Source of the DNA: Candidatus Omnitrophota bacterium
GTDB lineage: Bacteria; Omnitrophota; Gorgyraeia; Gygaellales; Profunditerraquicolaceae
Reading direction: 5' to 3'
Assembly (NCBI GenBank): GCA_028715785.1
Contig: JAQURC010000005.1
Location: 66,095-99,293, forward strand
Length of the DNA stretch: 33,199 nucleotides
Shown here piece after piece: positions 15,018 to 19,358 of this stretch. Within the stretch, counting starts at the first letter, position 1, and each line of letters opens with the position of its first letter. The notes under the pieces are model-generated. The model did not search any database. It was not told where the DNA came from and saw only the letters and a list, made by a program, of their open reading frames with translations. The position numbers were made by a program, and so were the translations under genes.

Positions 15018-17006
15018 TTATTCTTTATCCTCAGGCAGAGTGCGCGCGGTAAATGTGCACTTGGGAAAATTAGAGCAGCCGTAGAAAACACCGCGTTTAG
15101 AATGGCGCTCGATCAATTCTCCGCCGCAATTTTCAATGGAGCATTTAACCCCGGAGGTAATGGATTTTGAATTTTTGCACTTAGGAAAATCAGAGCAGCT
15201 TAAAAATTTACCGCGCCTGCCCCATTTCACAATCAAAGGCTTGCCGCATTTTTCGCAAACCTGATCGGTAACAATCACTTCCTTGACAATATTTGCCTGG
15301 GCAAAATCCAGGCTCTCTTTAAAAGGCGCGTAAAAATCTTCTAAAACTTTTAGCCGGCTAAGTGTGCCCTCTTCGATCTGATCCAGCTCCTCTTCCATAA
15401 ACGCGGTAAACTTAAAATCGAGGATTTTAGGAAAATATTCCACCAGCATGTCATTGACCTTAAAACCCAGCTCCGTCGGATTAAGGTAACCTTTTATCCG
15501 GCGCACGTAATCGCGCATAATAATCGTATAAATGATCGGCGCATACGTCGAAGGCCGGCCAATCCCCTCCTCTTCAAGGGCCTTAATTAAAGAGCTGTCC
15601 GAATACCTGGGCGGCGGCTTGGTAAAATGCTGCGAGGGAGTAAGTTTCTCTAACCCTAAAATTTCCCCCTCTTCAAGCGGAGGGATCACATTCTTGGCTT
15701 TTTCTTTTTCCTCATCCTCTTTTTCCTCATCCTCACTCTTATTATAAGCCGCCAAAAATCCTTCAAAAAGCAAATGGCTGCCATTGGCAACAAATAAATA
15801 TTTATCCGCCGCAATATCCACAGCGGTAGCTAAAAATTCCGCCGGCTTCATCTGACTGGCCAAAAAACGGTTATAGATAAGTTCATAAAGCCGTAATTGA
15901 TCGTGATCGAGAAAATCTTTCAGGCTCTCCGGAGAGCGGCAAACATAGCTTGGCCGGATTGCCTCATGCGCCTCTTGCGCGGATTTCTTGGCTTTAAAAA
16001 TATTGGGCTTCTCCGGAAGAAAATCTTTGCCAAAACTCCTGCCGATATGCTGGCGCACCTCCTGGATTGCAACGCTGGCGACATTCGGAGAATCCGTACG
16101 CATATAAGTAATTAAACCTACGGGATTATCTTCTCCGATATTGATGCCCTCATAAAGCTGCTGGGCCACCAGCATCGTCTTGGAAGCGTTAAACCTGAGT
16201 TTATTAAACGCTTCCTGCTGCATCGTGCTGGTAATAAAGGGAGCCGCAGGATAACGCTTTTTTTCTGTTTTTTTGATCTCTAAAACTTTAAACTCTTTAT
16301 CCTTTAGCTGATCGCAAATGCCCTGCGCGTCTTGCTGGCGGCTGATCTCTGCTTTCTGACCGTCGATTTTTTCAAGTTTGGCGCAAAAATGGCTCTCTCC
16401 GGAAACCCTGGGCTTAAATAATTCCGCGGCGATCTCCCAATATTCGCTGGCAACAAATTTTTGGATCTGCCTCTCCCTTTCCACGATCAACCTTAATCCC
16501 ACCGATTGCACGCGCCCGGCGCTTAAGCCGCGGGCAAGTTTTTTCCACAGCAAAGGGCTTAAAAAATATCCGACCAGCCGGTCTAAGACCCTGCGGCCGG
16601 CCTGGGCCTCGATCATTTTAGCGTCAAACTCCCGGGCGTTTTTAAAAGCCTCCTCCACCGCCTGCGGAGTAATTTCATGGAAGCTTACGCGCAAAACATC
16701 TTTGCCTTTAAAAACCTTCTCTTTTATCTGCCAGCCAATCGCTTCCCCTTCCCGGTCAGGGTCGGTAGCCACATATATTTTCTCTTTTGCCTTTGCGTCT
16801 TTTTTTAACTGTGCCAATAATTTTTTCTTGGCGGGGATAACGACATATTCCGGCTCAAATTTATTTTCCACATCCACGCCCAGCCTCTTAGCCGGCAGGT
16901 CGATAATGTGGCCCATCGAAGAAACTACGGTATAATCTTGGCCCAAGATTTTGCCGATGGTTTTGGCCTTAGTCGGAGACTCAACGATAACCAGATTTTT
17001 ACTCAA
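15018..17006 (-). CDS. topA: DNA topoisomerase I
   Basis: 662 aa; LVIVESPTKAKTIGKILG, ATDPDREGEAIGW, GLITYMRTDSPN (active Tyr), C-term Zn-ribbon cysteines. TTG start overlaps the dprA TGA. Confidence 0.96.
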   Translation of the reverse strand: MSKNLVIVESPTKAKTIGKILGQDYTVVSSMGHIIDLPAKRLGVDVENKFEPEYVVIPAKKKLLAQLKKDAKAKEKIYVATDPDREGEAIGWQIKEKVFKGKDVLRVSFHEITPQAVEEAFKNAREFDAKMIEAQAGRRVLDRLVGYFLSPLLWKKLARGLSAGRVQSVGLRLIVERERQIQKFVASEYWEIAAELFKPRVSGESHFCAKLEKIDGQKAEISRQQDAQGICDQLKDKEFKVLEIKKTEKKRYPAAPFITSTMQQEAFNKLRFNASKTMLVAQQLYEGINIGEDNPVGLITYMRTDSPNVASVAIQEVRQHIGRSFGKDFLPEKPNIFKAKKSAQEAHEAIRPSYVCRSPESLKDFLDHDQLRLYELIYNRFLASQMKPAEFLATAVDIAADKYLFVANGSHLLFEGFLAAYNKSEDEEKEDEEKEKAKNVIPPLEEGEILGLEKLTPSQHFTKPPPRYSDSSLIKALEEEGIGRPSTYAPIIYTIIMRDYVRRIKGYLNPTELGFKVNDMLVEYFPKILDFKFTAFMEEELDQIEEGTLSRLKVLEDFYAPFKESLDFAQANIVKEVIVTDQVCEKCGKPLIVKWGRRGKFLSCSDFPKCKNSKSITSGVKCSIENCGGELIERHSKRGVFYGCSNFPKCTFTARTLPEDKE

Positions 17007-18100
17007 CTATAGCTCCTCATGAATTGTTTACCCGGCAATTCTCTGATTAATTTTTTTAACTGTAATTTTAAAACTAAACTTAAGACCCGGCTGCTGGGCA
17101 AAGAACTCTTCTCCACTAAATCATCTATTGCCATAGGCTGCTGGCTTATGCATTCATAAAGCATCCCTTCCTCTTTTGTGTATTCAATCTCTTGCTTGGT
17201 TACCGGCATATTTTTTTCTTTTTTACCAACAACGGCTAAATTCAATTCCTCCAGAATATCGTCGCAGCAGGTAACCAATTTTGCCCCCTGCTTAATCAAA
17301 GCGTTGGCTCCGGCTGAACCGCTGGAATCGATCCTTCCCGGTAAAGCAAAAACTTCTCTGCCCTGCTCTAAAGCAAAATCCGCCGTAATTAATGCTCCGC
17401 TATTCCTGGCGGCTTCGGTGATTAAAACACCTAGGCTTAAACCGCTGATTAAGCGGTTACGCCGGGGAAAATTCTGCGCCAAGGGCTTGGCCTCCATAGG
17501 AAACTCAGAAACCACCGCTCCTGACCGGGCGATATCTTTGGCTAAATCCGTATTCTCCGCAGGATAAATATGGTTAAAACCGCTGCCCATCACCGCAATC
17601 GTGCGCCCTTTTATTTTGAGGGCTCCGCGATGGGCACAAGTATCTACTCCCCTGGCCATCCCCGAAACAATCGTTATCTCTTGAGCGGCTAATTGTCCGG
17701 CAAATTTTTCCGCCTGGTTTAACCCGTAAAACGAAGCTTGGCGCGAACCGACAATACCGACAGCTAAATTATCCCGCGCTGTAATACTGCCTAAAACATA
17801 AAGCACAATCGGCGCACCGGGAATCCGCTTTAAATTTTCCGGATACTCTTCATCATTTAAAGTAAGAATTTTAATATTCAGCTTCTCAGAAGAAGAAAGC
17901 TCTTTTTCTACGTTCTCTCTTTTAAAAGAAATAATGTTAGATGCAATTTGGTCCCCTATCCCCAAAATAGAAACCAAATGTTCATATTTGGCGCTAAATA
18001 TATCTTGCGGCTTGCCAAAAACTTCCAGCAATTTGCCCAGCCTTGCGCTGCCAATATTAGGAATTAAGTTTAATCCGACCAACGCTTCCAGCTCAGTCAT
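17003..18100 (-). CDS. dprA: DNA-processing protein DprA
   Basis: 365 aa; VGIVGSRQASFYGLNQAEKFAGQLA, VSGMARGVDTCAHRGAL, FPRRNRLISGLSLGVLITEA, GREVFALPGRIDSSGSAGANALIKQGA. Confidence 0.95.
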   Translation of the reverse strand: MTELEALVGLNLIPNIGSARLGKLLEVFGKPQDIFSAKYEHLVSILGIGDQIASNIISFKRENVEKELSSSEKLNIKILTLNDEEYPENLKRIPGAPIVLYVLGSITARDNLAVGIVGSRQASFYGLNQAEKFAGQLAAQEITIVSGMARGVDTCAHRGALKIKGRTIAVMGSGFNHIYPAENTDLAKDIARSGAVVSEFPMEAKPLAQNFPRRNRLISGLSLGVLITEAARNSGALITADFALEQGREVFALPGRIDSSGSAGANALIKQGAKLVTCCDDILEELNLAVVGKKEKNMPVTKQEIEYTKEEGMLYECISQQPMAIDDLVEKSSLPSSRVLSLVLKLQLKKLIRELPGKQFMRSYS

Positions 18101-18395
18101 TTTTTTCTTTTATCCCAATACCTATCTTATAACTGTACACTAAACAAAAAATTCCAACACTTAAATAAAGCATCACATCAATCAATGCAAAAGTTTTATG
18201 CGCTAAATACCAACTACAGGACCGAAAAAAATAGCGCCTCGGTAAAAACGTTAATGCCTTTTCTACTAATGGTGAACAGTGTTTTACAATAAAAATATGG
18301 TAAGAAAGAAAAAAACTAGCGGAAATTGTCGAAAGACCAATGATTGCTAATAAAACTGCCATTGTTATATACAATCTTCTATCTTTCTTATCCAT
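18093..18395 (-). CDS. Small hypothetical membrane protein
   Basis: 100 aa with three hydrophobic segments; overlaps the dprA start by 8 bp. Confidence 0.5.
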   Translation of the reverse strand: MDKKDRRLYITMAVLLAIIGLSTISASFFLSYHIFIVKHCSPLVEKALTFLPRRYFFRSCSWYLAHKTFALIDVMLYLSVGIFCLVYSYKIGIGIKEKND

Positions 18396-18401
18396 ATATT
18401 A

Positions 18402-18788
18402 TTAGTCAAACAATTTTACAGGTTCCCTCCCCCTTGTGGGGAGGGCTAGGGAGGGGGTAGATTTCAAATGTTCGACAATCTTTTGTAACACTCCATCCCG
18501 TTTTCCCAACACATCATGATTCCAGAACCTTAAAATCTTAAATCCCTGCTCTCTAAGCCATTGGTCGCGAGCGCTATCATACTCACTTTGCGCATGCTGG
18601 CCGCCATCAATTTCCACTATCAACTTATTCTCAAAACAGACAAAATCTACAATAAATTTTCCAATAACAGTCTGCCTGCGAAACTTTACTCCAAGATTCT
18701 TATTCCGAAACATATACCATAAATATTTTTCAGCTTCGGTAGGGTTATTCCTTAATCTCTTAGCATTAGGTGTTAGAAGTTTCTTCAA
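18402..18788 (-). CDS. DUF559 (Vsr/restriction endonuclease-like fold) protein
   Basis: 128 aa from a TTG start; RLRNNPTEAEKYLWYMFRNKNLGVKFRRQTVIGKFIVDFVCFENKLIVEIDGGQHAQSEYDSARDQWLREQGFKILRFWNHDVL is the DUF559 signature. C-terminal STPSLALPTRGREPVKLFD is encoded by a flanking repeat. Confidence 0.88.
   Translation of the reverse strand: MKKLLTPNAKRLRNNPTEAEKYLWYMFRNKNLGVKFRRQTVIGKFIVDFVCFENKLIVEIDGGQHAQSEYDSARDQWLREQGFKILRFWNHDVLGKRDGVLQKIVEHLKSTPSLALPTRGREPVKLFD
18424..18459 (+). repeat. GC-rich hairpin repeat, left arm of inverted pair flanking DUF559 gene
   Basis: tccctcccccttgtggggagggctagggagggggta; hairpin ccctcccc-cttgt-ggggaggg. 27/36 identity to the reverse complement of 18791-18826. 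Confidence 0.75.
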
Positions 18789-18790
18789 TC

Positions 18791-18826
18791 TCCCCCGCCC
18801 CTAACCCCTCCCACGAGGGGAGGGGA
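18791..18826 (-). repeat. GC-rich hairpin repeat, right arm of inverted pair flanking DUF559 gene
   Basis: Reverse complement tcccctcccctcgtgggaggggttaggggcggggga; hairpin cccctccc-ctcgt-gggagggg; ends 2 bp before the DUF559 start codon. Confidence 0.75.
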
Positions 18827-18851: not shown

Positions 18852-19358
18852 TTATTTTCTTATAATTGGAATCTTAGCGATTTTAGCCACTACTTCTTTT
18901 ATTGTCAGCCCGGAGGTATCGATTGTCTTATCAGCTTGCGCGTAATAAGGCGCGCGCATCTTTAGCAAAAGTTCAATGCGCTCCTTGGGTTTTGCCACAT
19001 TCAGGATCGGCCGATAGTTGCTGGAGGAAACTCTCTTTAAGATCTCCTCGCAATTAGCGCAAAGACAAATTAAAGCTCCGGTTTTTTTCATTAGCTTGAT
19101 GTTGTCTTTATCTAAAACTATCCCGCCGCCGCAGGCCACGACAAACTTTTTTTGGGTAGAAACCTGCTTTAAGAATTTTTTCTCAACTTTGCGGAAATAC
19201 GGCTCACCATCTTTAGCAAAAATATCCACAATCCTGCGCTGTTCTTTCAGTTCGATTAATTCATCCAGGTCGATAAAATTCCACTTCTTCTGCGCGGCCA
19301 ACAGCCGGCCAACAGTAGTTTTTCCTGTACCCATAAATCCGACAAGATAAATATTCAT
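18852..19358 (-). CDS. aroK: Shikimate kinase
   Basis: 168 aa; IYLVGFMGTGKTTVGRLLA (P-loop), FIDLDELIE, FRKVEKKFL, VVACGGGIVL, RPIL, RAPYYAQADKTIDTS. Confidence 0.95.
   Translation of the reverse strand: MNIYLVGFMGTGKTTVGRLLAAQKKWNFIDLDELIELKEQRRIVDIFAKDGEPYFRKVEKKFLKQVSTQKKFVVACGGGIVLDKDNIKLMKKTGALICLCANCEEILKRVSSSNYRPILNVAKPKERIELLLKMRAPYYAQADKTIDTSGLTIKEVVAKIAKIPIIRK

Follow-up and report, generated by a model that had tools for sequence, protein, structure and literature searches.

The BoxC/PIT triplex repeats, familiar since the 1990s, are present in hundreds of genomes and are markers of unstable sites. The Escherichia coli motif forms a stable triplex in vitro, and in vivo footprinting detected no stable triplex in the duplex context (Holder et al. 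2015; PMC4666352). In K-12, each of the five inverted pairs combines an A with a B motif, sites of the motif are prone to rearrangement, and neither a transposase or integrase near the E. coli motifs nor any other mobility gene was found; work cited in the same paper reported no promoter or terminator activity, and the words "DUF" and "endonuclease" are absent from it (PMC4666352). A second described system is that of REP/REPIN repeats with their RAYT enzyme, in which a single gene is flanked by hairpin repeats, gene-less inverted doublets spread in trans and the repeat type follows the enzyme type (PMC3116915). Among DUF559 proteins, NGO0050 (PDB 3hrl), E. coli YcjD and Caulobacter VsrA (PMC12907096) have been studied or annotated as host proteins, and flanking triplex motifs were not noted.

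The stretch of DNA analysed here (the window; 33,199 nucleotides) lies on contig C5 of a 1.46-Mb genome in 18 contigs. Between two genes presumed from their sequence to be aroK and dprA, it carries a DUF559 gene enclosed by two inverted hairpins.

17003..18100, minus strand: dprA (presumed), flanking host gene
18402..18788, minus strand: DUF559 (PF04480) gene for a predicted PD-(D/E)XK / Vsr-like nuclease, 128 aa, TTG start (uncertain)
18424..18826, minus strand: putative whole unit, about 400 bp, between aroK and dprA
18425..18457, plus strand: A-type triplex hairpin at the gene's 3' end, with Y-arm CCCTCCCC (18425-18432), loop CTTGT (18433-18437), R-arm GGGGAGGG (18438-18445), turn CTA (18446-18448) and mirror tail GGGAGGGGG (18449-18457)
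18792..18825, minus strand: B-type triplex hairpin at the gene's 5' end, with Y-arm CCCCTCCC (18825-18818), loop CTCGT (18817-18813), R-arm GGGAGGGG (18812-18805), turn TTA (18804-18802) and mirror tail GGGGCGGGGG (18801-18792)
18852..19358, minus strand: aroK (shikimate kinase; presumed), flanking host gene

Both GC-rich hairpins lay where the original prediction had placed them, and their inverted 36-nt match was identical at exactly the 27 positions it had counted. The window contained four perfect GC-rich stems of at least 8 bp, the unit's two hairpins among them, where shuffles gave an expectation of 0.1. Across the whole 1.46-Mb genome, the pattern CCCTCCC-N3..9-GGGAGGG matched twice, at the unit's two ends, and both the unit and the DUF559 gene were present as a single copy. 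Unlike REP sequences, the palindromes carried no GTAG/CGTC tag (as defined in PMC3733652), the window flanks reading GATT-CCCC and GGTT-CCC, and they bore a triplex tail instead. A 100-aa membrane-protein-like open reading frame was also observed between the unit and dprA (18093-18395, minus strand); none of the congeners examined showed a match to it at the orthologous site, and it may have arrived with the unit or have been lost elsewhere.

The encoded protein matched the Pfam DUF559 profile PF04480 with an E value of 2.2e-39 (134 bits against a curated cut-off of 20.6, residues 6-108). No transposase was found in the unit, since Pfam gave only DUF559 and a sub-threshold MTES_1575 match, and no Vsr family profile was reported by Pfam for the window protein. 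An AlphaFold2 model reached a mean pLDDT of 77.5 overall and about 90 in the core. The Vsr-like fold that had been anticipated was borne out by this model, for which Foldseek retrieved, from nearest to farthest, NGO0050 from Neisseria gonorrhoeae (3hrl), the catalytic domain of I-Bth0305I (3r3p) and Vsr (1vsr). NGO0050 belongs to the same family (profile E 5e-39, 40% identity in the fold match), as do YcjD and VsrA. The likeness to the EDxHD homing endonuclease I-Bth0305I lies in the catalytic fold (Foldseek E 5e-5, profile match E 9e-4). Residues D47, E58, D60 and H64 were invariant in the alignment columns of 51 sequences, and these conserved acidic and histidine active-site residues together with the predicted fold assign the protein to the PD-(D/E)XK / Vsr-like nucleases. 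Its dN/dS values of 0.05-0.19 show that the nuclease is under purifying selection.

The hairpins had also been proposed to supply the gene's ribosome-binding site and the protein's C-terminus. The first proposal proved weak, because the G-run of the 5'-end hairpin ends only about 3 nt before the TTG codon, a spacing too short for a good Shine-Dalgarno sequence; as the frame is, in addition, open for only four codons upstream of TTG, the start itself is uncertain. As to the second, the frame does pass through the 3' hairpin (TPSLALPTRGREP), but a functional meaning did not follow: the part read from the hairpin (residues 110-126) was predicted by AlphaFold2 to be disordered (pLDDT <50), and such a tail is absent in about 40% of loci. 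Among 86 loci, 52 genes read into or past the stem, 5 stopped in the tail and 29 stopped before it. The protein tail is thus read-through and not common to the family.

We then compared the ends of 106 DUF559 loci and found a shared layout of pyrimidine arm, loop, purine arm, a 3-nt turn (most often TTA, CTA or CCG) and a purine tail in which the purine arm returns as its mirror image, with A or T facing A. Examples are GGGGGAAGG-TTA-GGATGGGGG, GGGAGAGGG-TTA-GGGTGAGGG and GGGGAGGG-CTA-GGGAGGGG; the two window ends conform as well (GGGGAGGG-CTA-GGGAGGGG and GGGAGGGG-TTA-GGGGCGGG). Some Rhizobiales and one further genome (G010) carry an extra small hairpin within the turn. Tails agreed with the mirror of their own R-arm at 0.784, compared with 0.698 +/- 0.008 when tails were permuted between loci (1000 permutations, maximum 0.726). 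Read as a direct repeat the agreement was 0.695 and as a reverse complement 0.23; Watson-Crick pairing of the tail with the C-arm was ruled out, as the tail matches the mirror and not the reverse complement. This layout has what an antiparallel purine-motif intrastrand triplex would need. It shares with BoxC/PIT/TM repeats the Y-arm, loop, R-arm, TTA- or CCG-type turn and purine tail as a third strand (PMC4666352), and judged by sequence the ends correspond to this known motif rather than to plain hairpins. The original prediction had described plain hairpins; hairpins are indeed present, but it overlooked that each tail mirrors its purine arm and that the two ends differ in type, with CCCCTCCC at the gene's 5' end and CCCTCCCC at its 3' end. 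Folding z-scores from Vienna with DNA parameters, a method that cannot model triplexes, were unremarkable for the two ends (-0.96 and -1.34). A plain hairpin or terminator was ruled out by control genes and shuffles and by the published lack of terminator activity.

Next, we examined how regularly DUF559 genes and such ends occur together. A widespread association had been expected, with hairpin-free flanks of homologues, or a lack of association, named as the outcomes that would speak against it; this test was run and did not refute the expectation. Within a sample of 285 genomes of the phylum, the distribution of DUF559 was sporadic (about 28 genomes), and nearly all of the about 25 single-domain genes were bracketed by the ends. 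To collect the 80 best relatives, 84,980 species genomes were scanned with a protein pattern that took no account of flanks; these relatives came from many phyla and were mostly bracketed, and altogether the pairing is found in more than twelve bacterial phyla. As controls for inverted flank similarity, 455 genes neighbouring DUF559 on the same contigs were scored; of the 105 scorable DUF559 loci, 80 lay above the 99th percentile of these controls (p 5e-46, p-values being indicative as the loci are partly related by descent). A strict triplex-hairpin detector found inward-facing motifs at 8.05/kb within 50 bp of DUF559, compared with about 0.02/kb at distances above 1 kb; in 647 kb of shuffled sequence it found none. 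By this detector, 57 of the 106 loci had both ends, 26 had one and 23 had none, against 0 of 424 shuffled ends. A few DUF559 loci had outward tails or no motif, one of them (L027) without any.

The motif CCCTCYCC-N3..8-GGRGAGGG-NNRGGG was present in 48 of the 285 phylum genomes, and its reversed control in one. It occurred in 18 of 28 genomes with a single-domain or degenerate DUF559 gene versus 30 of 257 others (p 2e-9), an odds ratio of 13.6 that partly reflects the counting of the unit's own ends; the latter 30 genomes have dispersed motifs with no single-domain DUF559 detected. In other phyla, 35 of 42 DUF559 genomes contained the motif, in up to 136 copies, and controls gave 0. A Chlamydiota sequence falls inside the DUF559 clade of the window. 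Phage matches to DUF559 were few; on an unannotated gut phage scaffold (MT835749), a DUF559 gene was seen with short GC-rich palindromes nearby. On pSymB of Sinorhizobium meliloti Ak57, a DUF559 unit was nested in a longer inverted duplication that adds, to either side of the unit, a second hairpin and a spacer of identical sequence. Searches of the open-licence literature showed no published link between DUF559 and triplex motifs.

Within a locus, the two ends are alike, and they follow the protein that they enclose. The mean score between a locus's own left and right ends was 48.7, compared with 23.3 +/- 0.8 when ends were permuted between loci, and end similarity tracked protein identity (Mantel rho 0.45, p 0.0005). 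In the window's clade, where proteins are 61-94% identical (one pair 55%), the ends are CCCCTCCC/CCCTCCCC, with, in the loci inspected, the B type on the 5' side of the gene and the A type on its 3' side; the DUF559 proteins of G222 and G286, which are 91% identical to each other, have ends of the CCCCTTT type. These patterns show that gene and ends move together as one unit.

Gene-less derivatives were also observed. The congener G289 contains 98 hairpins dispersed over its genome (pattern control 1), and gene-less inverted doublets were present in both G125 and G289. In 14 regions inspected in G289, G290 and G125, neighbouring motifs of opposite orientation always consisted of one A and one B, as the inverted pairs of the dispersed BoxC/PIT/TM repeats do in E. 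coli (PMC4666352). Three G289 pairs of 98-102 bp join the 5' leader GGGGGAGATTG to CATTTGAAAT, with about 5 nt between, and CATTTGAAAT encodes HLK, close to the end of the nuclease gene. Because remnants of both gene ends are retained, at least these gene-less pairs appear to derive from the gene-bearing unit, and we regard them, on sequence grounds, as its internal-deletion derivatives. The three pairs share about 20 nt of outer flank, so some G289 pairs may be portions of a larger repeat. In loci L191, L192 and L194 of this genome, the outer flanks read GATTTTAGATAAATT on one side and GAATYCGTTTTTTC on the other, and the window's 5' flank TTTTTAGATGATTCCCC looks similar; these common flanks may represent an extended end, a larger repeat or a preferred target. 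The bracketed loci and the gene-less doublets together lend support to the proposal that the unit is a one-gene nuclease element with a layout like that of REP/RAYT.

To trace gain and loss, we compared the aroK-dprA junction in about 20 relatives of the window's genus. Solo hairpins and empty sites, which the original prediction had suggested looking for in relatives, were both found there. In most congeners the site was empty, the two genes abutting or being separated by unrelated sequence, and in G286 a solo CCCCTCCCC-ACAAG-GGGGAGGGG with the same loop and no gene stood exactly at the place of the window unit. Two congeners had a different palindromic repeat, of the type GTCATTCTGAG...AGATCCTTC...CTCAGGATGAC, at this site, and the junction seems to collect repeats. 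Units of the same type in the congeners G125, G289 and G290 occupied loci other than that in the window's genome, with no flank homology, and no fixed insertion target was found.

A case inside a host gene came from G010, a metagenome assembly of 98% completeness. On its 131-kb contig C3, an N6/N4 DNA methyltransferase gene contained two complete end-DUF559-end units within one open frame of 873 aa; gene-less hairpin clusters lay farther away on both sides, and the frame is broken by the last of them. Over the queried stretch, homologues in G149 (77% identical) and G054 (76%) were uninterrupted, and no hairpin was found at the insertion points in these empty homologues, which implies that homing into pre-existing hairpins alone cannot account for new sites. 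No target-site duplication was recognised by eye at the aroK-dprA or G010 sites. These comparisons show gains or losses of units at orthologous sites and their insertion into a host gene.

The E. coli DUF559 gene ycjD was considered as a further empty-site test and rejected. Here ycjD replaces eefRABCD between sapF and fabI, so the difference is an allele swap; the swap has been described with the repeats unmentioned (PMC12817139). The ycjD-type allele was present in 3,362 of 5,426 genomes. The ycjD allele examined carried three BoxC-like copies, two of them degenerate and all on the fabI side, and neither ycjD nor BoxC-like copies occurred on the eefRABCD allele that was inspected. For units on Sinorhizobium meliloti and Azospirillum plasmids, the end repeats recur elsewhere in Sinorhizobium/Rhizobium plasmids, and no clean empty site was found.

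Taken together, the unit is probably a minimal selfish element that consists of one PD-(D/E)XK Vsr-like nuclease gene between two inverted, non-identical triplex hairpins. The nuclease would recognise the triplex-hairpin ends, either as a duplex or, at forks, in single-stranded DNA, and would cut at the ends or at target sites. We know of no strand-joining activity of a lone PD-(D/E)XK enzyme, and spread is for this reason placed with host break repair, which might then copy the unit or a gene-less pair into the break, as with homing endonucleases. The scattered BoxC-like repeats, solo or paired, would then descend from it as non-autonomous elements, in the way proposed for REPINs and RAYTs. 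On a broader scale, we lean slightly towards the view that DUF559 genes with triplex-hairpin ends form a bacteria-wide, transposase-less mobile class, that E. coli, Neisseria, cyanobacteria and others carry its solo and gene-less relics in the form of their BoxC/PIT/TM repeats, and that the instability of repeat sites is caused, now or formerly, by the nuclease acting on triplex-forming DNA. The last point follows if the repeats are relics of DUF559 units.

Other accounts of the same observations were weighed. The motifs might be older, independent repeats, with DUF559 as a homing endonuclease that invades solo motifs and ends up between two. The solo hairpin at the orthologous site in G286, the fold relation to I-Bth0305I and the existence of motifs without DUF559 would agree with this; we nevertheless think it rather unlikely, given that gene-less pairs keep remnants of both gene ends, that ends co-vary with protein type and that the insertion points of the empty G010 homologues bear no motif. 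It is a more doubtful proposition still that DUF559 is a passenger, enclosed by chance in some of the hairpin pairs that a trans-acting transposase or recombinase moves. About 1% of the neighbouring genes tested score as high, the association concerns DUF559 specifically, in over a dozen phyla, the end type follows the DUF559 type, and Holder et al. (2015; PMC4666352) report that the E. coli motifs have no transposase or integrase nearby; these observations stand against the passenger account, which can draw on the many genomes that have motifs with no DUF559 detected and on the want of a known strand-joining activity in a lone PD-(D/E)XK nuclease.

A host function, with DUF559 acting on triplex hairpins as a Vsr-like or structure-specific repair nuclease and those beside its own gene serving in autoregulation, appears very improbable. 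Purifying selection on DUF559 is compatible with it, as is the link of the Caulobacter DUF559 protein VsrA to SOS induction on loss of a cytosine methyltransferase (PMC12907096), but such a role sits poorly with the sporadic distribution (about 28 of 285 phylum genomes), the different loci of congener units, the in-frame insertion into another gene in G010, the lack of a conserved partner and the absence of promoter or terminator activity of the motifs (work cited in PMC4666352). GC-rich hairpins are common and triplex-motif sites are prone to rearrangement (PMC4666352), and one could regard the ends as terminators or low-complexity GC-rich sequence paired with DUF559 by coincidence or by hitchhiking at hot spots; the control genes, shuffles, mirror-tail covariation and left-right matching exclude this, and we give it practically no weight.

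We therefore return to the selfish element as the preferred reading and to its relation to known systems. BoxC/PIT/TM repeats are orphan repeats with no mobility gene nearby, whereas here the motifs are the two ends of a nuclease gene. RAYTs are HUH Y1 transposases, and DUF559 proteins are PD-(D/E)XK nucleases. With EDxHD homing endonucleases the element may share, as a model only, selfish spread by cleavage and repair; unlike them, it has no intron, no extra DNA-binding domain and no fixed target gene, and it brings its own structured ends. Its gene-less derivatives are reminiscent of MITEs, and its in-frame insertion into coding sequence recalls the palindromic elements in genes of Rickettsia and Wolbachia; in contrast to both, a gene-bearing parent is identified here and can itself sit in frame. 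By analogy, RAYT/REPIN (PMC3116915) and homing endonucleases (PMC3943268) may serve as the closest working models. The element belongs to neither group by the features compared, having no HUH transposase and no fixed target gene, and for this reason we rate the kind as new, although its two parts, DUF559 and BoxC/PIT, were each already known. To our knowledge, this would be the first mobile element with DNA-triplex ends and a Vsr-like nuclease as its only protein. The finding also offers another reading of the published Caulobacter work on VsrA as a mismatch-repair enzyme. The link to DUF559 makes the origin of BoxC/PIT repeats directly testable; it would give them a candidate enzyme and would give a function to a large "domain of unknown function".
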